From: Nitrososphaerales archaeon
Lineage (GTDB): Archaea; Thermoproteota; Nitrososphaeria; Nitrososphaerales; Nitrososphaeraceae
Direction of reading: 5' to 3'
Assembly: GCA_029237515.1 (NCBI GenBank)
Contig: JARBAV010000312.1
Coordinates: 1 to 12,016, forward strand
DNA: 12,016 bases
This document shows, one piece after another, positions 783-12,016 of the stretch (positions within the stretch are counted from its first letter, which is position 1; each line of letters starts with the position of its first letter). The notes under the pieces are model-generated. The model was not told where the DNA came from and searched no databases. It was given only the letters and a program-made list of their open reading frames with translations. The translations under genes and the position numbers were made by a program.

Positions 783-1655
783 TCAGAAAGCCGATTTAAC
801 TGCCTTTACGAATCTGCGTGAGTCCGAAACCCATCCGAAGACGCCTCCTTGCATCTTTATTTGCTTTATTGCAGCTTGATAATTGTCGTAGTCAGTAGCA
901 CCCGTACCGTCTTTTAGTAATAGGCACCAGTATCCGTTGTCGTTGGCTTCCCTCATTATGGTGTGGACACATACGTCGGTCGTGATTCCTGTTATGATGA
1001 GATGAGTAATACCAAGATTCCGCAAAATCAATGGAAGATTACTCTGACCAAATGCGCCCTTACCCGCCTTGTCTATTATGTATTCTCCTGGAATTGGATA
1101 AACGTCATCTATGATGTCCCAATTTTTTTCACCCCTAATGAGTAGTCTACCCATGCCTCCTTTGGGAGTATCCCCAATTCCTACGCCGTTCCCTATAATT
1201 TTACTACGAAGTATTTTATTGTAAGGCGCGTCAGAGAGATCCGGAAGGTGCCCCTCCCTAGTATGTACAACCTTAATGTCTGTTCCCTTTCGAATTGTCT
1301 CCAATACATACATGATTGGCTTTATGGGAGCCGATGTTAACCCTAGATCATATCCCATTACATCCACATATCCCTTTGGACCGCAAAAATCAACTTGCAT
1401 GTCCACACTTATGAAGGCAGTTCTAGCTGAATCAAATTCAACGAATGCCTTGTCACCAAACCGTGGACAATCCTCAACTTCAACTGTCAGAAGTTTACCT
1501 TTAATAGGACCGTAAAGCCAGGTAGGAAATTTGAAGGTATGACTTTCATTAAATACCTCATAGTCTCTTTGAACCCTGTTCGCAATTTCATTTCTAACTC
1601 CAGATGGCATATCATTACTAGATTTTCTTGACTTTAGAGAATTAGCTTTCTTCAT
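783..1655 (-). CDS. Isochorismatase-fold cysteine hydrolase, biuret/ureidoacrylate-hydrolase-like
   Basis: A 290-residue member of the isochorismatase-like hydrolase superfamily, whose C-N hydrolases use an Asp-Lys-Cys triad. All three are present: Asp85 in VDMQVDF, Lys196 in DKAGKGAF and Cys229 in GITTDVCV. The segment TTDVCVHTIMREANDNGY and the HTREGHLPDLSD stretch (131-142) resemble the cytosolic branch acting on small ureides (biuret hydrolase, RutB-type peroxyureidoacrylate hydrolase, N-carbamoylsarcosine amidase). The metal-binding Asp/His set of nicotinamidases is not apparent. About 70 residues precede the catalytic core, so the protein is longer than the usual 180-230 residues. The ATG start at 1655 is supported by GGTGGT on the minus strand (1664-1669), 8 nt upstream. 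It probably hydrolyses an amide or ureide bond, releasing ammonia or a carbamate, in the pathway fed by the nearby importer. Family assignment is firm; substrate is inference. Confidence 0.85.
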   Translation of the reverse strand: MKKANSLKSRKSSNDMPSGVRNEIANRVQRDYEVFNESHTFKFPTWLYGPIKGKLLTVEVEDCPRFGDKAFVEFDSARTAFISVDMQVDFCGPKGYVDVMGYDLGLTSAPIKPIMYVLETIRKGTDIKVVHTREGHLPDLSDAPYNKILRSKIIGNGVGIGDTPKGGMGRLLIRGEKNWDIIDDVYPIPGEYIIDKAGKGAFGQSNLPLILRNLGITHLIITGITTDVCVHTIMREANDNGYWCLLLKDGTGATDYDNYQAAIKQIKMQGGVFGWVSDSRRFVKAVKSAF

Positions 1656-1738
1656 TAAGATTTACCACCAAATTCGATTACCGCCGTTTCATCTGTGACC
1701 ATACAGAATCAATCCTTAGAATAACGTTGTTGATGCAC

Positions 1739-1747
1739 TATATAAAA
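1739..1747 (-). promoter_or_regulatory. Candidate TATA box for the isochorismatase-like gene
   Basis: The minus strand reads TTTTATATA, matching the archaeal TATA consensus. A start site about 26 nt downstream would fall near 1717, giving a leader of roughly 60 nt that contains the GGTGGT ribosome-binding site. It lies in the 288-bp gap after the amidase gene. Confidence 0.45.
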
Positions 1748-1902
1748 ATCCACTAAATGAATAGCAATTCTAATCAATCCGGAAGGCAAATTTAGATTTT
1801 GATACAATTGGTATGCGATATCATATGGATTGATATAAGGATTAACTATCATACTTCATATTCGAGGAATATATGATTGCGAAAGAATAATTTCATTTAT
1901 GC

Positions 1903-1943
1903 AAAAATCTAACTACTATATATAGTACTGTGCTAACATTAGC
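1903..1943 (-). terminator. Candidate terminator after the amidase gene
   Basis: Directly after the amidase stop, GCTAA/TTAGC (1932-1943) forms a 5-bp inverted repeat with a 2-nt centre. Next comes a 14-bp perfect palindrome TACTATATATAGTA (1914-1927), then five T on the minus strand (1903-1907). Together these suggest that amidase transcription ends here and that the next gene has its own promoter. Evidence is structural only. Confidence 0.3.
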
Positions 1944-3395
1944 TCACACGCTTTGTTCGCTCAAGCAGGGAGCAATCATCGTTTCAGAAATTTTTGAATA
2001 CTTCTCGTACACGTTTGCGAGACTGAGAAGAAGAGCTTCGTCGAACTCTCTTCCTACGAGCTGAACTCCAATCGGAAGGCTGCCGTCTACAAGACCTGCA
2101 GGGACGTTAAGCGAGGGTAGACCAGTGATATCAAAGACAGTTGTAAGTCTGCTGAGTGCTATGTAGACCTCCGTATTTTTTCCATTGATGTCAACAAAAG
2201 TTTCTTCCAACCTAGGAGCACTAATTGCAGTTGTCGGTACTAACAAGCCATCCAGTCCCTTCATGGCTCTCAAAAAGTCGTCTTTTAGCTCTTTTTTATA
2301 GCGAAGTGCAGTTATATATTCAACAGCAGTAATTTTCGTCCCTCTTTCAAGCATGGTCAACACATCACTTCCATACTCGTCGCGGTTAGATTTTAGCCAT
2401 GAAGAATGAATCGCGGCTGATTCACCTAATCGGAACGCCTTCCAAGCGTCAGAAATCTTGTGTGTCTCATTTAAGGTAATTGGAAATGTTGAGACCCCAC
2501 ATCCATGCATCTCATTCAGGCAATTTTCAAAAATTTCCTTAACTTTTGGATCGATCAGATCAAAAAAGTACTGTTGGGGTACACCCAAAGTAAATTTTCT
2601 GGGTTTGTCCAAGGTCTCGGATACAATTTGAAGGTAATCTGGAACGGGCAAGTCATATGTTGACTCATCCAACATATCAAAGCCAGCAATCGCTTGCAAT
2701 AGCGCTGCCGTATCCCAAGCAGTTCGAGCAATTGGCCCAACATGGTCGATTGAGGGAGCCAACGGCATGACCCCATATTTGCTAACCCTCCCGTATGTGG
2801 GTTTCAGACCAAAAAGTCCACAAAGTGAAGAAGGAACGCGGATAGAACCACTAGTATCAGTGCCTAGAGAGCCTACAGCCATACCTGCGCTCACAGCAAC
2901 TGCTGAACCACCACTAGATCCTCCTGACATTCTACTCGGATCCCATGGGTTCTTTGAAGAGCCATAATGAGGATTTATGTTAGTAATTCCGCAAGCGAAT
3001 TCATGAGTATTATTCGTTCCCACTATGATCGCTCCAGCTTCCTTGAGTCTCTTAACTACAGTAGCGTCATAATCAGGTATAAAGTCCGAAAGTATCCTTG
3101 AGCCACTTGTACTTCTCACTCCGGTAACGTAAATTAGATCCTTTAAACTCACTGGGATTCCGTGCAAAGGACCCAAGTATTTGCCGGCACGTATGTCCGC
3201 CTCAGCTTTCTCTGCTTCCTTTCTAGCAGAATTTCCAGTTACTGTTATGTATGCATGAAGCTCTTCGTTTAGGGATTCGATCCTCTCAAGGGTATCCTCA
3301 ACCAAATCAACCGGCGACAAAGAACTGGAAGAAATCAGCTTGGATAGCTCCTGAATGCTTGATCCTATAGTTTTTCTACTGGAAAATTCTCGCAC
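1944..3395 (-). CDS. Amidase-signature family amidohydrolase
   Basis: A 483-residue protein of normal length for the amidase-signature family (Ser-cisSer-Lys hydrolases of amides and ureides; the family includes allophanate hydrolase, indoleacetamide hydrolase and GatA). The triad is visible: Lys85 in VSLKDLI, cis-Ser160 in the GGSSGGSA loop (158-165) and nucleophile Ser184 in TDTSGSIRVPSS. The glycine-rich core through GLKPTYGRVSKYGV is complete. The start is GTG at 3395, because a TAA lies three codons downstream of the only nearby ATG (3406) and no other start codon precedes the conserved N-terminus. GGAG lies 13 nt before the GTG, which is a long spacing. The setting among catabolic genes and the lack of gatB/gatC argue against a tRNA amidotransferase subunit. 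It may act on the product of the isochorismatase-like enzyme, for example an allophanate-like or oxamide-like intermediate, but that is inference. Confidence 0.9.
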   Translation of the reverse strand: MREFSSRKTIGSSIQELSKLISSSSLSPVDLVEDTLERIESLNEELHAYITVTGNSARKEAEKAEADIRAGKYLGPLHGIPVSLKDLIYVTGVRSTSGSRILSDFIPDYDATVVKRLKEAGAIIVGTNNTHEFACGITNINPHYGSSKNPWDPSRMSGGSSGGSAVAVSAGMAVGSLGTDTSGSIRVPSSLCGLFGLKPTYGRVSKYGVMPLAPSIDHVGPIARTAWDTAALLQAIAGFDMLDESTYDLPVPDYLQIVSETLDKPRKFTLGVPQQYFFDLIDPKVKEIFENCLNEMHGCGVSTFPITLNETHKISDAWKAFRLGESAAIHSSWLKSNRDEYGSDVLTMLERGTKITAVEYITALRYKKELKDDFLRAMKGLDGLLVPTTAISAPRLEETFVDINGKNTEVYIALSRLTTVFDITGLPSLNVPAGLVDGSLPIGVQLVGREFDEALLLSLANVYEKYSKISETMIAPCLSEQSV

Positions 3396-3833
3396 TTATC
3401 TGTTCATTCTCCTTGTTGTAGTTGGTGGCAGCAGTAACAGATCTTTCCTTCATTAGTGTTGGGGCTGATCATGTTGTTTCCTATTTTTTTCTCTTTTGAT
3501 TCTGTTTCCTGCCTCACTGTAACTAGGTGCAATGTTAGTTACTATCGTGCCAACTTTATATCCTTATTATATCATTTTGAAGAACCATTACATATATCAA
3601 AATAGGCACTATTATGGATATATGCAAAACATGAACATCGGTAACCAGTTTCATAATTTTTTCTGTTGTCTATAAGTATACAACAATGAAAGGCACTGAT
3701 AATGCAGCTTGTCGTCAATTTGCTAGCTTTTGCTTTGCCAATTCTGAAGTTGTATGGGTTCCAGTCTCACATATTGGCGAACGGGCAATATAGATTTAAA
3801 AATGAACTCTCATTTTATCACCCATGTCACTGT
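3396..3833. other. Divergent control region between the amidase and PurE-like genes
   Basis: This AT-rich region separates divergent genes. TATA-like words occur at 3554-3562 (usable on either strand), 3671-3680 (TATAAGTATA) and 3794-3802. Upstream of 3834 the PurE-like frame stays open to an ATG at 3702, but the added 44 residues (hydrophobic, then His/Tyr/Phe/Asn-rich) align with nothing in PurE proteins and look like translated non-coding DNA. The box at 3671-3680 would give a leaderless transcript at 3702, so the longer form is not excluded. Confidence 0.5.
3794..3802 (+). promoter_or_regulatory. Candidate TATA box for the PurE-like/FAH operon
   Basis: ATTTAAAAA is centred about 36 nt before the ATG at 3834, predicting transcription from about 3824 and a leader of roughly 10 nt. 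This is the main reason for preferring the 3834 start over the upstream 3702 ATG. Confidence 0.4.
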
Positions 3834-4388
3834 ATGAAATCAACCTTAAAGCCCAGAAAAAGACGTTTAAAGAGTAATCAAGGTAGTTTCTTAGATCAAC
3901 ACTTGGTTTCGATTGTTGCTCCCTCAATTGAATTGTTCAACAAAATTCATGAGGCGTGCTCGGTTTTGGAAAACTTTGGTATCCCCTATGAGACTGCCAT
4001 TGTTGCCGCTCACCGGTCACCTAACAAGGCAATCAAATATGCAAGTGGTCTTGAAGTTAGGGGGATAGAAGTTGTCCTCGCTTGCGGAACTGGATCAGCC
4101 CATCTTCCCGGAATGATAGCTTCGCTTACGAACCTTCCTGTAATTGGAATACCTTTGACACATGCTCAATCACTAATGGGCGGTACAGATTCTCTGCTTT
4201 CGATGATTCAGATGCCTCAAGGGGTCCCTGTTGCCACAGTAGGTATAGATTCCGCGTACAATGCTGCTCTTATGGCCTGTCAGATTCTGAGCCTAAAATA
4301 TCATTCTTTAAGGGAAAGGCTTCAATTACACAAGCGCAAGATGGAAGAGGAGGTAGATTCTGATGAAAGCTACATAAGAGTTAGTTAG
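3834..4388 (+). CDS. PurE-like (AIR carboxylase/N5-CAIR mutase fold) protein with altered substrate loop
   Basis: A 184-residue protein from the chosen ATG (228 if started at 3702). It aligns along its length with PurE, the N5-carboxyaminoimidazole ribonucleotide mutase of purine synthesis. FGIPYE (48-53), AHRSP (59-63), ACGTGSAHLPGM (83-94), LPVIGIP (101-107), DSLLSMIQMPQGVPVAT (119-135) and the C-terminal NAAL-ACQIL helix are all PurE hallmarks, including the catalytic His60. The defining loop GSxSD, however, is replaced by APSIE (29-33), and Ser of SAHR is Ala58. In E. coli PurE these positions (Ser16, Asp19, Ser43) bind the phosphoribosyl group. A loop at 107-117 is also about two residues longer. 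No purK is adjacent; instead an FAH-family gene follows after 24 nt. I infer a PurE paralogue acting in catabolism, perhaps carboxylating or decarboxylating a non-phosphorylated substrate. A divergent true PurE remains possible but less likely. Confidence 0.75.
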   Translation: MKSTLKPRKRRLKSNQGSFLDQHLVSIVAPSIELFNKIHEACSVLENFGIPYETAIVAAHRSPNKAIKYASGLEVRGIEVVLACGTGSAHLPGMIASLTNLPVIGIPLTHAQSLMGGTDSLLSMIQMPQGVPVATVGIDSAYNAALMACQILSLKYHSLRERLQLHKRKMEEEVDSDESYIRVS

Positions 4389-4412
4389 CCATTAAAGATC
4401 GCGAGTCAAGAT

Positions 4413-5375
4413 TTGAGAATCGCTAGGGTAGCGAAAGGAAATATAGAGCCTAAGGAATCTGCTGTAACAGAAGATACGGATGTTAATAGAGGTAGTCCTA
4501 AAGTGACAAACAAGTCATCTGAACTCTATTCTGATACCTACGCCATCGTAAACAAGAATGGAGATGCGATTACAGCAGACGAAATCGAGTCTCAAACTGA
4601 TATTCGAATTCCCCCTACTTTGGAAGATTTCATCTTTGAAGGATATGCAGATCGTATAGGAAAGGTTCTTGACAGGCTGGATCTTACTCACAAAATCTTC
4701 AACTTCCATTTGCTTCCCCCAATTACAAGATCATTTAAAATAATTTGTTTGGCATTTAATTACAAAGACCAGGACACTTGGTTACGCTTCGGAAAGTTTC
4801 CTCCCAAGGACCCCGTTATTTATATGAAGGCCCGAACAAGTTTGACTGGGGCTTTCGAAGATATAATCTGTCCTTCTTTTGTAAAGCAGCTTGATTACGA
4901 AGGAGAGTTAGCATTAGTAATTGATAGGAAATGCAGAGACGTAGAGATCAATAGGGCATTAGAATACATCGGTGGATATTTCGTGTTAAATGACATTTCC
5001 GCTCGAGATATACAATTTATTGATAAACAATATAGTCGAGCCAAAAGCTTTGATTCATTTGGACCATGTGGACCATGGATAGTTACTCGTGAAGAAATCC
5101 CTGATCCGAACGATTTGGAGCTGATCACTAAGGTAAACGACGAAGTTAGACAATGTTCTTCTACTTCTAAGCTTGTTCTAAACATTGAGAAAATAGTAAC
5201 TAGTCTAAGTAGTGTAATGACACTAGAAGCCGGAGATATAATATCAACAGGAACGCCTACTGGCACGGCTCTATCGATGTCGTCACATCTTAAATATTTA
5301 CAACACGGAGACATTGTACAGGTAGAGGTTGAGGGAATAGGTAAAATAAGAAATAAAGTAAAATTTGTTAATTAA
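4413..5375 (+). CDS. Fumarylacetoacetate hydrolase (FAH) family protein, catalytic dyad altered
   Basis: A 320-residue FAH-superfamily protein; the family comprises metal-dependent C-C hydrolases, decarboxylases and isomerases. The catalytic domain starts near residue 108. Metal ligands are evident: Glu163 and Glu165 in DYEGELALVI and Asp194 in NDISARD. Later motifs MKARTSLTG (138-146), KSFDSFGPCGPWIV (211-224) and LEAGDIISTGTPTGTA (271-286) fit the family. The usual NYxxHxxE segment, which supplies the lid His/Glu dyad, reads NYKDQDTW (116-123): His is Gln120 and Glu is Trp123. The N-terminal 100 residues are a weakly conserved FAH N-domain with an unusually polar start. TTG at 4413 is the only start codon between the upstream in-frame TAG and residue 1; no strong ribosome-binding site is seen. 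The gene lies 24 nt after the PurE-like gene and is surely co-transcribed. Fold is firm; reaction unknown. Confidence 0.85.
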   Translation: MRIARVAKGNIEPKESAVTEDTDVNRGSPKVTNKSSELYSDTYAIVNKNGDAITADEIESQTDIRIPPTLEDFIFEGYADRIGKVLDRLDLTHKIFNFHLLPPITRSFKIICLAFNYKDQDTWLRFGKFPPKDPVIYMKARTSLTGAFEDIICPSFVKQLDYEGELALVIDRKCRDVEINRALEYIGGYFVLNDISARDIQFIDKQYSRAKSFDSFGPCGPWIVTREEIPDPNDLELITKVNDEVRQCSSTSKLVLNIEKIVTSLSSVMTLEAGDIISTGTPTGTALSMSSHLKYLQHGDIVQVEVEGIGKIRNKVKFVN

Positions 5376-5561
5376 ATAATATATCGGGGTTCCAGGTGAA
5401 ATTTCTGGCAGTTTCTTGATAGTATCTAAATCCTCATAATTGCTAATCAAGTAGCATTTATTGTGATGGATAACCCAAACCCAAAATGAATGAAAAATAA
5501 AACATGGCCATCACTTATTGTTTAAGAACGGATCGCCTATTGGCGAGAACAGCAGCCTATC
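5376..5561. other. Convergent junction between the FAH-like and permease genes
   Basis: Two operons converge here. For the minus-strand importer operon, TCGCC/GGCGA (5533-5537 with 5542-5546, loop TATT) forms a small hairpin about 16 nt past the stop, and a T-rich run on the minus strand (complement of 5493-5502) lies about 60 nt past it. Either could end the transcript. No comparable T-run is seen for the plus-strand operon. Confidence 0.35.
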
Positions 5562-6497
5562 CTATCTTTCTCCTCTTTTGTAGGGAGTTGCCAACGCGGC
5601 GGGAGCCACACTCTTTTTATACATAACGGCCAGAATTGCGATCGGGAGTAAGTACGGTAGCATCAGCAAAAACTGAAACGGAATTGTCGTTCCTTTTGTT
5701 TGTAGTCCCAATGCAGTCGCATTGACCATTCCATAAACAAAAGCACCTAATACTATCCAAAAGGGTCTCCACCTGCCGAAAATTACGGCTGCAAGAGCAA
5801 TCCATCCTTGACCTGCAGCAATATCTTCAGAAAAAGAACCAGTAGTTACTAAGGCGATATAGGAGCCTCCCAAACCCGCAAACGCGCCCCCTATGATTAC
5901 CGACATGTAGCGAATCCTGTTTACGTTTACTCCCAGTGTATCAGCCTGCTTTGGGTTCTCTCCCACTGTTCTTATCTTTAGACCAATGTTTGTCTTGAAG
6001 AGAAAAATATGAGTCAATGGAATTAGCAAAAATGCAAGGTAGATCATTGCGTCATGATGGAAAATAATAGGTCCCAAGACTGGAATCGAACTCAAAAATG
6101 GGATGTCTAGAGGTGGTATAGTGGGAACTGTTGGTGCAACCGTCACTACTCCAAAAGTTAATCGGTATAGTAATGCGGCAAGGCCGACCCCCAAGAGCCA
6201 AATGGCTAAGCCAGCAACCAATTGGTTTGTGCGTAAACTAACACTTAGAAAGGCCATAAGGGCTGCCATGACCATTGGACCAGAAACAGCAAACAATATT
6301 CCAATGATTACATTCCCTGTGACAAACGTTCCAATAAAGCCGGCAAATGCCCCGATTAACATCATTCCTTCAACCCCTAGATTGAGGACACCTGAACGTT
6401 CAGCTATATTTTCACCTAGGGCCGCAAAGAGCGAGGGTGTACTCATACGAATCCCTGACGCAACTATTCCGATAATAAAATCAATCATTTCTACCAA
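5562..6497 (-). CDS. BMP/Nup-type ABC importer, second permease (NupQ-like)
   Basis: A 311-residue integral membrane protein of the branched-chain/ribose-type permease family (BPD_transp_2), mostly hydrophobic with about 8-10 predicted membrane segments. Diagnostic stretches are ERSGVLNLGVEGMMLIGA (33-50), GENPKQADTLGV (179-190), the cytoplasmic coupling region, and GQGWIALAAVIFGRWRP (229-245). It resembles the NupQ/YufQ-type subunit that pairs with a NupP-type permease in nucleoside-class importers. It is the last gene of the four-component operon, 9 nt after its partner permease. The TTG start at 6497 is supported by GGAGTGAT on the minus strand about 8 nt upstream, overlapping the previous gene's stop. 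ATG at 6488 is an alternative. Transported substrate is not readable from the permease. Confidence 0.9.
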   Translation of the reverse strand: MVEMIDFIIGIVASGIRMSTPSLFAALGENIAERSGVLNLGVEGMMLIGAFAGFIGTFVTGNVIIGILFAVSGPMVMAALMAFLSVSLRTNQLVAGLAIWLLGVGLAALLYRLTFGVVTVAPTVPTIPPLDIPFLSSIPVLGPIIFHHDAMIYLAFLLIPLTHIFLFKTNIGLKIRTVGENPKQADTLGVNVNRIRYMSVIIGGAFAGLGGSYIALVTTGSFSEDIAAGQGWIALAAVIFGRWRPFWIVLGAFVYGMVNATALGLQTKGTTIPFQFLLMLPYLLPIAILAVMYKKSVAPAALATPYKRGER

Positions 6498-6506
6498 ATT
6501 TTCAAA

Positions 6507-7625
6507 TCACTCCCCTTTCCCCCTTTCCGCAGGCGCACCAATTTGCTTCCCGTGGTCTTCTAATTTGGCTTCATTTACTCTCTTGATTCTTCTTGGAAGA
6601 TGAATCCGAGTGAATACTTCTCCGATTAGGACGAAGACTAGAACGAGTGCCTGCAGCGTTTGAGCGAAAGCAACTGGTATTCCTAACGTTCTATACATAG
6701 ATTCGGATCCTGCAAGCAAGACCGCAAAGAAGAAAGCGACAAGACAGACTCCTAAAGCGTTTTCTCTGCCCAAAAGTGCAATGATCACAGCAATGAATCC
6801 ATAGCCAGGAGAAATGCCCTCGATGAGTCTGTGCTGGACACCCGCTAAAAGTACGGCTCCAGTCAGTCCTGCCAGCCCTCCACTTATGGCCATAGTTATT
6901 AGGATACTTTTCGTTATGTTCATACCCGCATAACGTGCCGCAGAAATATTCATGCCTACGCTCTTTAATTCAAATCCAATCTTGCTTTTCCATAGGAAAT
7001 GAACAAAAATGGCCGCCAATCCTGCTATGATTAATCCTGCATGTAATCTGGTATGATCTATCAAAATAGGCAGTTCAGACTCCGGAAAAATATCAGGACT
7101 GTAAGGCAAAAACCCTGGCGCTTTGATCGGGCCATGCAGGAGGTAAGAAATAAAGAGAAGAGCTACGAAATTGAGAAGAACGGTTACAATTATTTCACTT
7201 ACGCCCAATTTGACCTTGAGTACCGCCGGCACAAGACTGAACATCGCTCCAAATGCAATGCCCGCAATGAGGACGATAATAACCGAGACCACAGGAATCA
7301 TGCCCACTACTGCAATTCCAACTAGCAACCCTCCGAGAGCCCCCATATAGAGTTGACCTTCAGCGCCGATATTCCATAACCTACACTTAAATGCGACAGC
7401 TACAGCAAGACCTGAAATGAGTAGCGATATAGTCTTTACAAGGGTATCCGCAATCGCACGGGTAGTTCCGAGTGATCCTTTAATCAGTAATGCATAGGCT
7501 TCAAGGGGATCTACGCCTGCCGCATAGAGTATGATTCCTCCGACCAAAAAAGCTAGTCCACCTGACAGGAATGGGACGATGTGTTTAAAACTGAGTCTCT
7601 TTCCAAGTATAAGAGTTGTACTCAA
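6507..7625 (-). CDS. BMP/Nup-type ABC importer, first permease (NupP-like)
   Basis: A 372-residue polytopic permease of the BPD_transp_2 family. The family signature NIGAEGQLYMGA is at 85-96, and a second conserved region, AGMNITKSI plus a glycine-rich membrane segment with SGGLAGLTGA, follows in the middle. The C-terminus ends in a charged cytoplasmic tail rich in Lys, Arg and Glu. It forms the heterodimeric channel with the downstream permease and is energised by the double ATPase encoded 48 nt upstream. The TTG start at 7625 is preceded by GTGATC with 7-nt spacing, a match to the 3' half of the archaeal Shine-Dalgarno GGAGGTGATC; this makes a non-ATG start credible. Length and topology are normal for a NupP-like subunit. 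Confidence 0.9.
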   Translation of the reverse strand: MSTTLILGKRLSFKHIVPFLSGGLAFLVGGIILYAAGVDPLEAYALLIKGSLGTTRAIADTLVKTISLLISGLAVAVAFKCRLWNIGAEGQLYMGALGGLLVGIAVVGMIPVVSVIIVLIAGIAFGAMFSLVPAVLKVKLGVSEIIVTVLLNFVALLFISYLLHGPIKAPGFLPYSPDIFPESELPILIDHTRLHAGLIIAGLAAIFVHFLWKSKIGFELKSVGMNISAARYAGMNITKSILITMAISGGLAGLTGAVLLAGVQHRLIEGISPGYGFIAVIIALLGRENALGVCLVAFFFAVLLAGSESMYRTLGIPVAFAQTLQALVLVFVLIGEVFTRIHLPRRIKRVNEAKLEDHGKQIGAPAERGKGE

Positions 7626-7673
7626 TCTTTTAGATCACGATCTCCCATATTTCCATAATCTATAGCCATCATT

Positions 7674-9314
7674 TCAAGCACCAGCCTCCACTACGTAACC
7701 CCCCATCAATGGGCCTATTTTATCGACGTCTGCTGTTGTCCTGTCAAATACCCCCATTATCGTGCCGGCATATATTACTGCTATCCTGTCGCTGACTAGG
7801 AGAATTTCATCCAAATCTAAGGACAACAGTAAAACTGCTACCCCAGAGGCTTTTTGTTTAAAAAGTTGTTTGTGGACATATTCGGCAGCACCCACATCCA
7901 ATCCTCGTGTAGGATTATGAGCAATAAGCAGTTTGTGCTCCTTTGACAATTCTCTTCCAAGCACGATTTTTTGTAAGTTACCACCTGACAGATAGCGTAC
8001 TTGAATATCTAAACTTGGAGTTCTCACATCGAAATTTGTGACGATCTCCTCTGCAAATCTTTTCATTTCATGCTTGTCTAAAAATATCTTGCCTGAATAA
8101 GGTCTGCTATACCACCTGTCCAAAATCAGGTTTTCAGCAATAGTGTATTCTAGAATTAGACCCGTATTGAGTCGATCTTCGGGTATGTAAGCCAGACCCC
8201 ATTCTCTGATCTGCTTCGGTGACATTCCTGTTGTGTCGCGTCCGTCAATGGTTACCTGACCACTCTGTATCTTCCTCAAACCAGAAACAATCTCTGCCAT
8301 TTCGCTCTGACCATTGCCATCGACTCCTGCAATTCCCAATATCTCGCCTTTTGATACCGTTAATGACAAGTCCTTAAGCGCTTGTATCCCCGAGTTATTC
8401 AATGCAAATACGTCCTTAAGTTCAAGCATCGTAGCAAGTCCAGCTGTGGCTCTTGCACTAGAGGATTTCTGAATTCCTGCAGCGATCTCCTGTTCCAGAC
8501 GGTCTACACTGTGAGTGAGTGACCTTCCTATCATCAATTTTGCAAGGTCTGTTTCTGTTGTCTTTGCGGTCATTACCGTGCCAATAACTTTACCACCTCG
8601 AAGAACTGTAACACGTGTGCTTGCCTCAATGACTTCTCTTAACTTGTGTGTGATGAATATTATAGATAGTCCAGCCTTTACCATAGCAGATAACGTCGAG
8701 AACAAAGCCTTTTCTTCCACGGGGGTAAGCATTGAAGTAGGCTCATCGAGAATTAGAATGTCGACATCTCGGTAGAGTGCTTTTATTATCTCTACCCGTT
8801 GTTGTTCGCCCACAGATAGATCACCTACGATTGCTTTTGGGTCAATCTTGAGACCATATTTTCTGGATAATTCCAAGATCCTATTTTCTGCCTCCGTCGT
8901 ATTAAGTAAAATAGACCTTCGAGGTGACTTCAGCCCGACAATAATGTTCTCTGTAACTGTATGGCTAGGTGTCAATAAGAAATGCTGATGAACCATAGCA
9001 ATCCCAAGACCTATGGAATCGAGAGGAGATTTTATGTCAACCTTTTTCCCCTTCACATAAATTTCCCCTGCTTCTGGTTTGTATAAGCCGTAGAGCACAC
9101 TCATCAAAGTTGTCTTTCCAGCTCCGTTCTCTCCAAGAAGACCATGAATTTCGCCTTTAAAAAGATCGAAGTGCACGTCGTTGTTGGCTATAACATCACT
9201 AAATCTGCATGTTATGCCGTTCATGGAAAGGACTGGTTGGTTTTCCGGTGTTCCGACCGGCGATGATTGCGAGGGGTTCAAGTTCGTAAAGGGAGGAGAA
9301 CCCGCATCAGACAT
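7674..9314 (-). CDS. BMP/Nup-type ABC importer, double ATP-binding protein (NupO-like)
   Basis: A 546-residue protein with two fused nucleotide-binding domains, as in sugar and nucleoside importers of the RbsA/NupO type. Domain 1 has Walker A GENGAGKTT (61-69), signature LSVGEQQR (166-173) and Walker B LILDEP with Glu191. Domain 2 has a degenerate Walker A GVDGNGQSE (330-338, Lys replaced by Gln), signature LSGGNLQK (442-449) and IAHNPTRGLDVGA (464-476). The degenerate second ATP site is normal for this family. An extra 30-residue Pro/Ser/Asn-rich segment precedes the first domain. The ATG at 9314 lies inside the last codons of the preceding 62-codon frame, with 8 nt of overlap. The protein acts at the cytoplasmic face of the membrane with the two permeases. 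Confidence 0.95.
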   Translation of the reverse strand: MSDAGSPPFTNLNPSQSSPVGTPENQPVLSMNGITCRFSDVIANNDVHFDLFKGEIHGLLGENGAGKTTLMSVLYGLYKPEAGEIYVKGKKVDIKSPLDSIGLGIAMVHQHFLLTPSHTVTENIIVGLKSPRRSILLNTTEAENRILELSRKYGLKIDPKAIVGDLSVGEQQRVEIIKALYRDVDILILDEPTSMLTPVEEKALFSTLSAMVKAGLSIIFITHKLREVIEASTRVTVLRGGKVIGTVMTAKTTETDLAKLMIGRSLTHSVDRLEQEIAAGIQKSSSARATAGLATMLELKDVFALNNSGIQALKDLSLTVSKGEILGIAGVDGNGQSEMAEIVSGLRKIQSGQVTIDGRDTTGMSPKQIREWGLAYIPEDRLNTGLILEYTIAENLILDRWYSRPYSGKIFLDKHEMKRFAEEIVTNFDVRTPSLDIQVRYLSGGNLQKIVLGRELSKEHKLLIAHNPTRGLDVGAAEYVHKQLFKQKASGVAVLLLSLDLDEILLVSDRIAVIYAGTIMGVFDRTTADVDKIGPLMGGYVVEAGA

Positions 9315-9495
9315 ACCTGCCTAAGTACCCCCCAATTGCATTTGCCCTTGTGATGAACTGTACCTTGAGCAAAATTACCTTCCCTGGATTGATATCTTTC
9401 CAAGTTTTTACCTCATGGCTGGAGAATTGAAACCTCAGATAATCTATAAGGTTGTCCGGGCCAGCGATCCTATTCTGATCCTTTCTATGGAACAA
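9307..9495 (-). CDS. Possible 62-residue small protein within the importer operon
   Basis: This frame fills almost exactly the 184-bp space between the binding-protein gene (stop at 9499) and the ATPase gene (start at 9314). It begins at TTG three bases after the previous stop and ends with a TGA that overlaps the next start by 8 nt, the geometry of translational coupling. Its third-position base use looks like the flanking genes and not like AT-rich spacer. The translation is a basic, soluble-looking protein with a strand-like stretch (GKVILLKVQF) and no motif I recognise. There is no clear ribosome-binding site, so it may instead be untranslated leader for the ATPase gene. Confidence 0.35.
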   Translation of the reverse strand: MFHRKDQNRIAGPDNLIDYLRFQFSSHEVKTWKDINPGKVILLKVQFITRANAIGGYLGRYV

Positions 9496-9498
9496 AAA

Positions 9499-10557
9499 TT
9501 AGGATGAGGCTTCTGTCCTTTCCGGAACCACAATCTTGCCACTTATTATATCTTGTACGATTTGGTTAAGCCTCTGTTTCACATCCGCGGGAACCTCGCT
9601 ATCAAGATTATGAAATGGTGCAATAAACACAATACCGTCCCCGGAGGCACCTTTTGCAGTCTCTAATCCAGGCTTATAAAGCTGGCCACTAAAGTTACCG
9701 TTTTGCACCATTTTTATTGCCCCATCGAAAGCCTTTTCCATATCCAGAACAAAAGAGGTCAATACAGTATCTGGTGCAAGATTATGTTGATCTGCCACTA
9801 CTCCCAAAGCGTATATACCCTTTTCTTTTGCTGCTTGAATTACTCCCTGTCCTGATAAGTCAGCAACGTGAAACAGGAAATCAGCTCCATTATTTATCAA
9901 CGAAACTCCAGCCTCCTTTCCTCGAGCAGGGTCAGTAAAAGTATCGATATATTGTCCTAATACCTTTATGTCAGGATTGATAGACCTGGCTCCCTGTTTA
10001 TACCCCTCGAATATGTTTACAATGTTAGGATATGCCTGGCCACCTACGAAGCCAATCGTACCTGTCTTTGACATCATGGCCGCCAAAGCTCCTAGTACAT
10101 ACGATCCCTCTTGCTGCATTGGAAAGACAGATGCTACATTACTACCGTTGGTCAGACCTGTAAAGACTACAAACTTTGTATCAGGATAGTCAGCACCAAC
10201 TCTTAGAGCTGGATCGCCCCACTCAAAGCCATGAGCAATAATGAGATCATTTCCTTGATCAGCAAAATCTCTTAAGGTTGGCTCTATATCAGGAATGGCA
10301 ACATTCTCAACTGTGGTCAATTCTAAACCATATTTTTCCTTTAAGGCCTGCGAGGCGTTATATGCCGTAGCACCCCAGCCACCATCACTGAACAATGCAT
10401 CAGTTAATAATGCCACCTTCAATGGTGTTCCTTCCTCTTGTGCCCAGACGCCTTCCAACGTCGGGTATGAAAAACTAGACCCAGTGATCAATATTACAGC
10501 GACCATAATTCCGGCTACAGCACCCGTAATCCTGCTTACCTCAGATCTTTTGGACAT
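9499..10557 (-). CDS. BMP family substrate-binding protein of an ABC importer
   Basis: A 352-residue protein of the basic-membrane-protein (BMP/Med/PnrA) family, the extracytoplasmic receptor of nucleoside-class ABC importers. A basic start and a hydrophobic segment (11-30) form a signal or anchor, with a possible cleavage after VWA (Ala39). No lipobox Cys is present. Mature motifs follow the family: KVALLTDALFSDGGW (47-61), DLIIAHGFEWGDPAL, FPMQQEGSYVLGALAA (145-160), GTIGFVGG, then FEGYKQGARSINPDIKV. Purine-binding PnrA proteins carry an aromatic just after the first strand; here Trp61 in DGGWG is near that place, while the ribose-contacting Asp-Asn pair is not obvious. I chose ATG 10557 over the in-frame TTG at 10563 because the TATA box predicts transcription starting near 10563. 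First gene of the importer operon. Ligand unknown; ureide, purine or related N-compound is inferred from context. Confidence 0.9.
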   Translation of the reverse strand: MSKRSEVSRITGAVAGIMVAVILITGSSFSYPTLEGVWAQEEGTPLKVALLTDALFSDGGWGATAYNASQALKEKYGLELTTVENVAIPDIEPTLRDFADQGNDLIIAHGFEWGDPALRVGADYPDTKFVVFTGLTNGSNVASVFPMQQEGSYVLGALAAMMSKTGTIGFVGGQAYPNIVNIFEGYKQGARSINPDIKVLGQYIDTFTDPARGKEAGVSLINNGADFLFHVADLSGQGVIQAAKEKGIYALGVVADQHNLAPDTVLTSFVLDMEKAFDGAIKMVQNGNFSGQLYKPGLETAKGASGDGIVFIAPFHNLDSEVPADVKQRLNQIVQDIISGKIVVPERTEASS

Positions 10558-10585
10558 CTTCAAGAATCATAGCGACTGTAGATCG

Positions 10586-10593
10586 TAATATAG
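10586..10593 (-). promoter_or_regulatory. TATA box of the importer operon
   Basis: The minus strand reads CTATATTA centred near 10590. Transcription would begin about 27 nt downstream, close to 10563, giving a leader of about 6 nt to the ATG at 10557. This near-leaderless spacing is typical of archaea and decides the start codon. Confidence 0.5.
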
Positions 10594-10615
10594 TTTGTCT
10601 GATTTATGCTAAAGA

Positions 10616-10633
10616 TTTATGATATATCATAAA
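10616..10633. promoter_or_regulatory. 18-bp perfect palindrome, candidate operator
   Basis: TTTATGATATATCATAAA is its own reverse complement over 18 bases. It lies about 35 bp upstream of the importer TATA box and some 310 bp from the fdrA-like TATA box. This position suits an activator or a helix-turn-helix dimer acting on the importer promoter. The core is AT-rich, so some self-complementarity is expected by chance, though not of this length. Confidence 0.4.
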
Positions 10634-10940
10634 AAAGAAAGTTTACATTGGACAGGTGCCAGATCAGAGGTCCAAATTTTTCATGCAAAAGCACTTAGTC
10701 TTGATGATATGTGAAATTATACCTGTCGAATCTAATACTCGAGGAGAGAAAATTTAACTTCGCCTTCATGGCTTCTATTATCCAAGCAAAAGTAAGTTCT
10801 ACAATAGCCACCTTTCAATTATCAGTATGCCCCTAATTTCTGAAACTGATCTTTGCCACTAATAATTATTCATGACGTCTACAATATAATATAATCTATG
10901 GATGACTTCATTTATGCGCATTTAGAGCCGAATATGCAAC

Positions 10941-10952
10941 TATACTTAAATA
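10941..10952 (+). promoter_or_regulatory. TATA box of the fdrA-like gene
   Basis: TATACTTAAATA is centred about 33 nt before the GTG at 10981, predicting transcription from about 10973-10975 and an almost leaderless message. An in-frame TGA at 10969 prevents any earlier start, so promoter and frame agree on GTG. Confidence 0.55.
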
Positions 10953-10980
10953 CCATAGCTCTGAACGCTGAACTACGAAA

Positions 10981-12016
10981 GTGGGCAAACCCATACCTTC
11001 GGCGGATACTTATCATAATGTTCTAGTTAAGCATAACTATTACAGGGACTCACTTGAACTTCTTAGATTGTCCGATGAGATTAAGCGATATCCTGGAATC
11101 ATGGAAGCCTCTCTAGTCATGGGCACTAAAACTAACAAAGAAATCCTGATTAAATTAGGCTTCCCCACCGACAATATCGCCAAGGCAGAAAGTTCAGATA
11201 TGATAATTGCCCTGAGAGCTAAGGATGAAGCCTTGTTACTTTCAACAATTCCTAAAATCGAAGCTATTTTACGTGGTACTGGAACTGGGAGTGAGAGAAC
11301 CCAAGATTTGGACCATTCTTCGACTAGCGATAGACATGATCTTGAATCAGTGCTTAGTTCTGATAAGGAAATTAACATTGCGTTAATTTCAGTTCCTGGT
11401 GAGCATGTTAAAGGCTTGGCGTTCAGATTGATCGATGAGGGAATTCATCAACAAATTTTCAGCGATCATGTCACTATGGATGATGAGCTTGAGATAAAAA
11501 GATATGCATTGAAGAATCATGTATTAATCTTGGGACCTGGGGCTGGGACGTCGATTATCAATGGAAGGGGGATTGGATTTTCAAATGCGGTTTCTACCGG
11601 TCCTGTCGCGATTGTAGCAGCCGCAGGTACCGGGTTACAAGAGGTTTCCACACTACTAGATCATTGTGGAATAGGGGTAAGACACGGATTGGGGGTTGGA
11701 GGAAATGATCCTAAAGCAAAGATCGGTGGCTTGATGATGTCGGAAGCATTCAAGATGCTAGAAGAAAGCGAAGATATTGATGTGATAAATATAGTGTCAA
11801 AACCTCCGGCAGCAAGTGTCAAGCAGAATATAATTGATCATGCAGCTAAGCATGGAAAGAAAAAATACGTAATGACATTTATCGGTAGTAACACCCTTAC
11901 AAAAGATACTAAAGTGAAAACGGTGCGAGGTAGAACTAGGAGGCTTACAATGCAATCAAACAAGATCATTATAGCCAATACTCTTACTTCTTCGGTTTTT
12001 GCAACAGCAAAACACA
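10981..12016 (+). CDS. fdrA: FdrA-like protein, acyl-CoA synthetase alpha/beta-like (3' truncated)
   Basis: An open frame from GTG to the window edge covers 345 residues with no stop. The order of motifs matches FdrA, a relative of succinyl-CoA synthetase. These are YYRDSLELLRLSDEIKRYPG (20-39), ASLVMGTKTNKEIL (43-56), ISVPGEHV (136-143), IFSDHVTMDDELEIKRYA (159-176), a CoA-ligase-like Rossmann loop LGPGAGTSIING (184-195), AAAGTGLQEVS (213-223) and SKPPA (273-277). In E. coli FdrA (AllF) works with two partner proteins as the oxamate carbamoyltransferase of allantoin degradation. The usual GPDCGT loop is GPGAGT here, and the linker at 98-130 is polar and longer than I expect. The gene diverges from the importer operon and has its own TATA box. 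The partner genes (DUF1116, DUF2877, carbamate kinase) would be expected beyond the right edge. Family is confident; the exact reaction is inference. Confidence 0.85.
   Translation, partial: MGKPIPSADTYHNVLVKHNYYRDSLELLRLSDEIKRYPGIMEASLVMGTKTNKEILIKLGFPTDNIAKAESSDMIIALRAKDEALLLSTIPKIEAILRGTGTGSERTQDLDHSSTSDRHDLESVLSSDKEINIALISVPGEHVKGLAFRLIDEGIHQQIFSDHVTMDDELEIKRYALKNHVLILGPGAGTSIINGRGIGFSNAVSTGPVAIVAAAGTGLQEVSTLLDHCGIGVRHGLGVGGNDPKAKIGGLMMSEAFKMLEESEDIDVINIVSKPPAASVKQNIIDHAAKHGKKKYVMTFIGSNTLTKDTKVKTVRGRTRRLTMQSNKIIIANTLTSSVFATAKH

Follow-up and report, generated by a model that had tools for sequence, protein, structure and literature searches.

A probable two-module organic-nitrogen salvage island in a soil ammonia-oxidising archaeon

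On the basis of gene content, co-localisation, co-occurrence and residue conservation, we consider it fairly probable that a soil ammonia-oxidising archaeon has a two-module island for the salvage of organic nitrogen, the greater part of which is represented by the stretch of DNA analysed in this work (the window, 12,016 nucleotides); for this island we infer the substrates, the order of the steps, the ligand of the importer and the reactions. The window spans an entire contig of the source assembly (G000; 511 contigs, 78.8% complete) and carries a BiuH-like enzyme, an amidase, a PurE-like and an FAH-like protein, a complete BMP importer and the start of AllF/FdrA. Each of the nine genes is an open frame at the position reported in Table 1 and has a clear match (Pfam and, for the last one, the FdrA model); the start of the PurE-like gene is more likely at 3834 (184 aa) than at 3702, as given earlier, since the former start region is common to another locus (L040). 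No housekeeping-like ORF of at least 80 aa was seen between the nine genes, the other ORFs overlapping them in other frames, and both the ORF check and the Pfam/PRK matches agree with the original prediction of a complete BMP importer and five enzyme families with no housekeeping gene interspersed. The window gave no Rfam match. Archaeal amoA was found in all five genomes of the genus, G000 among them, which makes the host an ammonia oxidiser.

Table 1. Genes of the window, with their positions, strand and main matches.
Gene product	Position	Strand	Match
BiuH-like cysteine amidohydrolase, N-terminal extension of ~70 aa	783..1655	-	Pfam Isochorismatase 1e-30
Amidase-signature enzyme (GatA/AtzE/AtzF superfamily), probable allophanate-type amidase	1944..3395	-	Pfam Amidase 2.5e-113
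PurE-like protein without GSxSD motif	3834..4388	+	AIRC 6.7e-48; TIGR01162 161.1 bits
FAH-superfamily protein, Gln120 at the NYxDH His position	4413..5375	+	FAA_hydrolase 9.1e-67
BMP-type ABC importer, permease 1	5562..6497	-	BPD_transp_2 2e-37
BMP-type ABC importer, permease 2	6507..7625	-	BPD_transp_2 2.8e-36
BMP-type ABC importer, ATPase with two ABC domains	7674..9314	-	ABC_tran in two stretches, 8.7e-53
BMP/PnrA-family substrate-binding protein	9499..10563	-	Bmp 8.1e-62
AllF/FdrA, oxamic transcarbamylase subunit, first 345 codons	10981..12015	+	PRK06091 1.6e-67; CoA_binding 1.4e-7

The window is another case of a cluster already published for ammonia-oxidising archaea, the same gene list having been reached independently. 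Indeed, main-text passages of Rasmussen et al. (October 2025; PMC12625717) describe biuH, a gatA-like amidohydrolase, purE, FAH, bmpA-nupABC and allFGHK together in these organisms, with codB sometimes present in the biuH contigs and biuH also found in N. viennensis EN76; thus, the earlier statement that the combination matches no nameable pathway no longer holds. The window belongs to the same family and shares the same gene set; only allGHK are missing from the contig, whose end falls within allF. What is new here is the split into two modules, the loss of a PurE motif, the replacement of a His in the FAH-like protein and, in Nitrososphaera, a carbamate kinase (AllK) with a nested BMP domain; we found no mention of these four points in the main-text passages of PMC12625717, in whose main text “fusion” and “fused” do not occur.

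The two-module organization emerges from the comparison of 70 genomes of the family Nitrososphaeraceae. BiuH and the island FAH were found together in 16 genomes, BiuH alone in five, FAH alone in one and neither in 48 (Fisher p 1.3e-10, uncorrected for shared ancestry), and the tightest pair was formed by the PurE-like protein and the island FAH (both 16, FAH only 1, PurE-like only 2, neither 51). The BiuH contigs of 21 genomes, counted within at most 20 kb per contig, also hold the PurE-like gene (15), the island FAH (15), the amidase (14), the BMP importer (10) and an NCS1 permease (9); gene order varies widely among them, and strand and order shift between genera. A strong AllF match is absent in 13 of the 21 BiuH genomes and BiuH is absent in three of the 11 AllF genomes, which makes a single linear pathway unlikely: the island consists of two modules partly independent of each other, one formed by BiuH, the PurE-like protein and FAH (and the amidase), the other by the BMP importer and AllFGHK. 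The transporters on BiuH contigs are BMP only in nine genomes, NCS1 only in eight and both in one; the idea that NCS1 replaces BMP was dropped because BMP tracks AllF, and these figures fit better with a separate transporter for each of the two modules. In relatives, AllF is followed by AllH, the carbamate kinase AllK and AllG. Therefore, the island families do co-occur in related genomes, and the original prediction of an island by which an ammonia oxidiser takes up and degrades organic nitrogen is upheld, the route probably leading to ammonia and carbamoyl phosphate; its reading of the five enzymes as one pathway gives way to two partly independent modules, one of which would correspond, with the AllH, AllK and AllG of relatives, to the known oxamic transcarbamylase route.

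The first module (BiuH, amidase, PurE-like and FAH-like proteins, with the NCS1 permease in other genera) would most likely convert biuret, or a biuret-yielding compound, via allophanate into ammonia and CO2. Upstream of this, a further compound would be the target of the PurE-like and FAH-like proteins; our guess is that the former decarboxylates a non-ribosylated compound, such as 1-carboxybiuret. The second one (BMP importer, AllFGH and AllK, with AllGHK off the contig) would import a small planar ureide-like compound, whose carbamoyl group might be split off as carbamoyl phosphate, as from oxalurate in E. coli, and then yield ATP, ammonia and CO2. The ammonia released would feed both assimilation and ammonia oxidation. 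If this is right, soil ammonia oxidisers import ureides (biuret, oxalurate), cut them and might obtain ATP in the process through substrate-level phosphorylation, and the island-specific enzymes (BiuH, PurE-like, FAH-like and amidase) can be tested in a cultivable organism.

Concerning the BiuH-like enzyme, NF050097 (BiuH) scored far above the other four models listed (284 bits, below the curated cut-off of 370), and the structures matched were R. leguminosarum BiuH 6azo (248 bits), the biuret hydrolase 6xjm (233) and the cysteine hydrolase 6xix (158). According to passages of PMC5806882, R. leguminosarum BiuH has the triad Asp36-Lys142-Cys175 and contacts biuret through Lys145, Thr171, Gln215, Phe41, Tyr47 and Val174. 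The alignment of the two proteins revealed that all nine residues are kept (Asp85, Phe90, Tyr96, Lys196, Lys199, Thr225, Val228, Cys229 and Gln269), while Thr179, one of the nine conserved active-site residues listed in the same passages, corresponds to Ile233. Judging from its residues, the enzyme would work like BiuH, although its formal family membership lies below the curated score; moreover, since TrtA and BiuH hold their substrates through the same residues (PMC7948467), triuret stays a possible substrate. All 15 aligned island copies of the amidase have the Lys, cis-Ser and Ser motifs and the RLGES motif. Against AtzF (TIGR02713) the amidase scores 230 bits (cut-off 511) and covers profile positions 3-416 of 563, the C-terminal domain missing, and it may work like AtzF despite falling short of the family cut-off. 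This module resembles the triuret/biuret pathway (TrtA, TrtB, BiuH and AtzF; PMC7948467 and passages of PMC5806882) in the catalytic and biuret-contacting residues of BiuH and in the hydrolysis of amides to ammonia, but differs from it in having an amidase without the AtzF score and C-terminal part, as well as the PurE-like and FAH-like proteins.

The PurE-like product is, by sequence, a PurE-family protein, passing the curated cut-off of TIGR01162 (149.6 bits). The GSxSD motif, which binds phosphate and ribose (passages of PMC9376930), is missing in 17 of 17 readable island copies (19 island entries in total) and kept in all 35 housekeeping PurE sequences; the motif comparison thus indicates that the island PurE retains the catalytic His but has lost its contacts with phosphate and ribose. 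An ordinary N5-CAIR mutase role was rejected on account of this loss and of the canonical PurE encoded elsewhere in the genomes of relatives. No canonical PurE was found in G000, just the island copy and a low-scoring 290-aa AIRC-domain protein on contig C450, which we put down to assembly incompleteness. In the island FAH, a Gln takes the place of the His of the NYxDH motif, which we take to be catalytic in FAH hydrolases/decarboxylases, in 17 of 17 copies examined (18 places are known, and two of those examined are pieces of genes interrupted by stops); the His is present in three of three aligned housekeeping copies and in domain 2 of HpaG (1gtt). The changes in both motifs suggest that the PurE-like and FAH-like proteins probably catalyse new reactions. 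A search of plasmids gave 62 records matching the PurE-like protein (40 of them listed): the two neighbourhoods viewed (L123, pTi; L124, Ilyobacter) are not ureide islands, and no PurE-like gene adjoining BiuH was found. PurE gave no match in the main text of PMC12507026, on the clostridial xanthine pathway.

As for the second module, AllF is cut short in the window because the contig ends inside the gene; the full frames of eleven other strong matches measure 551-653 aa, the full-length relatives in the genus being 80-92% identical to the window AllF; a full-length relative of AllF scores 388 bits (cut-off 433). All four AllF/G/H/K genes occur in L040 (AllG cut), L042 (AllK short), L046 and L038/L039. 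In G000 no match was obtained for AllG, nor for carbamate kinase at E 1e-40, which may reflect assembly incompleteness. According to passages of PMC11326118, E. coli AllFGH converts oxalurate into carbamoyl phosphate and oxamate. OHCU decarboxylase occurs in none of the 70 genomes; the source of oxalurate is therefore not visible, and the classical allantoin route through this enzyme was rejected. Relatives of the window share with the oxamate branch of allantoin use in E. coli (allFGH and allK; PMC11326118 and PMC9843812) the association of AllF, AllG, AllH and carbamate kinase, but the archaeal AllF lies beside a BMP importer instead of allantoin genes, in an aerobic ammonia oxidiser. In all AllF loci but one (11 of 12), importer genes adjoin AllF divergently; the exception is L044, whose contig stops ~140 bases upstream of AllF. 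Trp63 and Phe209 of the binding protein align with the aromatic sandwich of the AtzT pocket (6pi5; residues from PMC6834077). AtzT, which binds guanine and 2-hydroxyatrazine and belongs to the atzRSTUVW operon, is similar also in its BMP family and in its gene lying beside an amide-degrading operon, but the polar contacts differ (Glu165 to Asn180, Asn218 to Asp235, Asn220 to Ser237 and Ser97 to Gly112). A vitamin B6 importer was rejected (NF047927/28/29/30 scores of 145, 245, 184 and 497 bits, cut-offs 400, 465, 400 and 670).

It might be supposed that the island encodes one continuous pathway, in which the PurE-like protein (decarboxylation of an aglycone, such as the CAIR base) and the FAH-like protein would turn an imported ring of purine origin into a ureide, then degraded by BiuH, the amidase and AllFGHK. 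The tight PurE-like/FAH pair, the retention of the PurE catalytic His with loss of the phosphate and ribose contacts, the predicted purine-type pocket of the importer and the nucleobase type of the NCS1 permeases of other genera are in agreement with this idea, which we nevertheless regard as unlikely, since AllF without BiuH and BiuH without AllF both occur, OHCU decarboxylase is lacking, passages of PMC12625717 report known upstream purine genes as absent from all AOA MAGs, and Pfam and curated family models revealed no ring-opening amidohydrolase in the window.

It appears quite improbable that AllFGH acts on allophanate rather than on oxalurate, so that BiuH would form allophanate from biuret and its phosphorolysis would give carbamoyl phosphate and carbamate, saving as ATP the energy that AtzF would waste. 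No oxalurate source is seen, and, according to the same passages, biuH and AtzF do not lie together in AOA, biuH being accompanied instead by a GatA-like amidase and frequently by allFGHK; however, the amidase lying beside BiuH in genomes without AllF (e.g., G010, G014, G015, G018, G025, G026 and G044) could perform the hydrolysis, comammox hold both atzF and allFGHK (passages of PMC12625717), and the word “allophanate” is absent from the main text of the AllFGH paper (PMC11326118), which thus lends no support. Lastly, the variable gene order and strand, and the fact that substrates are deduced, would fit genes brought together by some other cause, such as a common nitrogen-starvation regulon, without common substrates. 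This we hold to be very improbable, because the co-localisation survives many rearrangements and the paralogs that co-occur are island-specific, unlike the housekeeping copies. The main text of a study of N. viennensis expression under copper limitation (PMC7785015) gave no matches to the terms searched.

Returning to the two-module reading, a further feature lies outside the window. In four of four Nitrososphaera genomes having AllF or AllG, AllK contains a BMP domain of ~320 residues, which replaces the tip of the mobile protruding subdomain (lid) of the kinase and is circularly permuted in the three copies showing it, two copies being cut by contig ends. A binding protein nested in an enzyme is the layout that protein engineers build for artificial sensors. 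We give an even chance to the possibility that the nested AllK is a natural ligand-gated kinase, whose lid is gated by the imported compound in the cytosol, and that evolution has remodelled the PurE-like and FAH-like proteins for new reactions on non-nucleotide ureides. A relative of the importer's binding protein, permuted at the hinge, would replace the lid, and the imported compound would open or close the kinase, deciding whether carbamoyl phosphate becomes ATP. If true, a transporter component and an enzyme of the same cluster gave rise to this protein; it would be a rare example from nature of an enzyme in which a circularly permuted binding protein is inserted, and its ligand would reveal the cargo of the importer. 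No description of a BMP domain inside AllK was found in the literature searched, nor relatives of the nested AllK in viral contigs, and an AlphaFold model was set aside (mean pLDDT 50, alignment of 9 sequences). Compared with ordinary carbamate kinases (1e19, 3kzf and 1b7b; PMC3474736), the nested AllK keeps the NPTKP motif and, as far as sequence tells, both kinase halves, but bears the BMP domain at the tip of the protruding subdomain; AA_kinase and the carbamate kinase 1e19 are each matched in two stretches, and the frame is intact, with no stop in the 637 codons of L025, nor in L156.

The window represents a real and functionally coherent gene set. The gene content originally predicted, i.e., a BMP importer accompanied by isochorismatase-fold (the biuret-hydrolase-like BiuH), amidase, PurE-like, FAH-like, and FdrA-like proteins, was borne out by profile matches, and the predicted ammonia-oxidizing host is in agreement with the presence of archaeal amoA in five of the five genomes of its genus. 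The host assembly comprises 511 contigs and is 78.8% complete, the window being one of these contigs (G000:C445, 12,016 bases); its nearest named relatives are the Nitrososphaerales/Nitrososphaeraceae assemblies TH5896, Dino_bin45, TH5895, and TH526. The original prediction could assign this combination of genes to no nameable pathway; however, the cluster is described by Rasmussen et al. (mSystems, October 2025; PMC12625717), who propose the use of triuret/biuret and oxalurate, and the window thus adds one more example to a gene set that had already been published.

Location of the genes in the window and of the nested carbamate kinases in Nitrososphaera loci
Feature	Location	Strand	Remarks
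Isochorismatase-fold hydrolase (BiuH)	783-1655	-	family by Pfam/NCBIfam-type profile match
Amidase-signature enzyme	1944-3395	-	profile match
PurE-like protein	3834-4388	+	profile match; ORF start originally placed at 3702
FAH-like protein	4413-5375	+	profile match
Two permeases, double ATPase, BMP binding protein	5562-10563	-	profile matches
AllF/FdrA, first 345 codons	10981-12015	+	profile match
Nested AllK	L025:4022-5935 (= L046:9269-11182 -)		G028
Nested AllK	L156/L177		G043
Nested AllK	L157		G037
Nested AllK	L158		G041

The co-occurrence of these families, whose analysis had been suggested together with the prediction, was checked in 70 genomes of the family, many of them incomplete, and the families do co-occur. 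BiuH was found in 21 genomes (22 places), island-type FAH (at least 59% identity) in 17 (18 places), the PurE-like protein (separated from housekeeping PurE by score, plus the motif where readable) in 18, and a strong AllF in 11 (12 places); AllF matches in 51 further genomes are weak (E 1e-5 to 1e-15) and to shorter proteins, and a second FAH of 45-54% identity is present in most genomes of the family.

Pairwise co-occurrence in the 70 genomes (Fisher p values ignore shared ancestry)
Pair	Both	First only	Second only	Neither	p
BiuH/FAH	16	5	1	48	1.3e-10
BiuH/PurE-like	16	5	2	47	1.0e-9
FAH/PurE-like	16	1	2	51	1.0e-12
BiuH/AllF	8	13	3	46	0.0019

The BiuH contigs of the 21 genomes, inspected over up to 20 kb each, carry the PurE-like protein in at least 15 genomes, FAH in at least 15, the amidase in at least 14, the BMP importer in at least 10, and NCS1 in at least 9. 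Because of these counts and of the co-occurrence tables, we read the island as two modules, the one formed by BiuH, the PurE-like protein, and FAH (with the amidase and NCS1) and the other by the BMP importer and AllFGHK (oxamic transcarbamylase and carbamate kinase), which are joined in the window. Genome G025 harbors two complete BiuH modules (FAH, PurE-like, amidase, BiuH, NCS1), on contigs L139 and L140, and an ArsB/MamN/DASS-type membrane transporter lies between FAH and BiuH in G043 (L038:3557-4999 -) and G026 (L141:11385-12824 +). A small BiuH module, in which BiuH adjoins a cytosine permease and an amidase annotated as atzF, was also observed on a plasmid of the haloarchaeon Natronorubrum daqingense (NZ_CP019329.1, L122:13998-18323); this BiuH shares 62% identity with that of the window in an alignment that spans almost the whole protein and also takes in the N-terminal extension.

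Aligned to the reference BiuH, whose catalytic residues and biuret contacts were taken from PMC5806882, the window enzyme keeps the triad (Asp85, Lys196, Cys229) and the contacts Phe90, Tyr96, Lys199, Thr225, Val228, and Gln269, the reference Thr179 being replaced by Ile233; its score of 284 bits is below the curated BiuH cut-off of 370. The triad motifs and RLGES occur in 15 of 15 aligned copies of the island amidase, and the Arg of RLGES aligns with an Arg of GatA and with one of a haloarchaeal atzF product, in keeping with a carboxylate-bearing substrate.

The chemistry of the PurE-like and FAH-like proteins is worth following up. From the 22 PurE-like rows of island loci, L126 and L129 (which proved canonical) and L138 (a C-terminal piece resembling housekeeping PurE) were set aside, leaving 19, 17 of them readable at the GS[DE]SD motif. 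None of these 17 possesses the motif, vs. 35 of 35 housekeeping rows; in human PAICS, its two Ser bind the phosphate and its Asp the ribose (PMC9376930). All 18 rows that could be read at the catalytic His retain it (as AAHR, AAHW, or SAHR), and copies of the g5/g6 type retain the last Asp of the motif (MPNEKD). In the island FAH, Gln replaces the His of NYxDH in all 17 copies examined, two of which are pieces of stop-broken genes labelled as housekeeping by the score threshold; the housekeeping FAH has His in three of three aligned copies. Stop- or frame-broken island FAH genes occur in the assemblies G069 (L105), G030 (L117), and G022 (L119), reflecting decay or sequencing error.

Downstream of AllF, relatives encode AllH, the carbamate kinase AllK, and AllG, as seen at L040 (G066, AllG cut by the contig end), L042 (G069, with an AllK frame of merely 97 aa and a further AllK elsewhere in the genome), L046 (G028), and L038/L039 (G043); AllH, AllG, and the kinase were assigned by Pfam on L046 and L040. 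BMP importer genes adjoin AllF divergently at 11 of 12 AllF loci, the contig of the twelfth (L044) ending ~140 bases upstream of AllF. In the window binding protein, Trp63 and Phe209 align with Tyr45 and Trp194 of the AtzT guanine sandwich, but the polar contacts differ. At its left end (1-327 +), the window encodes the end of a repetitive protein that is acidic and rich in Pro; low complexity likewise marks the left part of L040 (1872-2378 +).

Also worth following up is the nested AllK of Nitrososphaera, of which no description was found in a search of largely open-access literature that covered the main text of PMC12625717. In G028 (Nitrososphaera sp. UBA217, L046/L025) and G043, one open frame of about 637 aa encodes the kinase residues through NPTKPIGPYF, the C-terminal part of a BMP domain, a linker, the BMP N-terminal part, and the rest of the kinase, starting YRRVVPSPKP. 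Pfam finds AA_kinase and Bmp, each as two stretches, and a PDB sequence search retrieved carbamate kinases and BMP proteins, the best of each in two pieces. The BMP/PnrA-like domain is circularly permuted and nested in the protruding subdomain, the place of whose tip it occupies; the movement of this subdomain is required for catalysis (PMC3474736). The G037 copy, truncated by the contig start, runs from the kinase N part through the BMP C part and the linker into the first portion of the BMP N part, and the G041 copy, truncated by the contig end, runs from the last portion of the BMP N part into the kinase C part; all four Nitrososphaera genomes with AllF or AllG thus carry the nested AllK. 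G020, G053, G065, G066, G067, G068, and G069, seven further genomes from the family, have an uninterrupted AllK frame of ~300-325 aa. In a search of the class, covering 400 genomes evenly sampled from a larger group, 61 matched at E 1e-40, and only in the four Nitrososphaera genomes did one listed match cross the kinase/BMP border.

Between G028 and G043, pN is 0.12-0.20 in the protein parts vs. 0.51 in the linker, synonymous change being saturated, so both domains are kept by selection. The structure model of the nested AllK was too poor for use. The nested BMP domain shares the importer's pocket residues (Trp, Phe, Asn, an aromatic residue, Asp, and Ser), and the kinase might be gated by a ligand.
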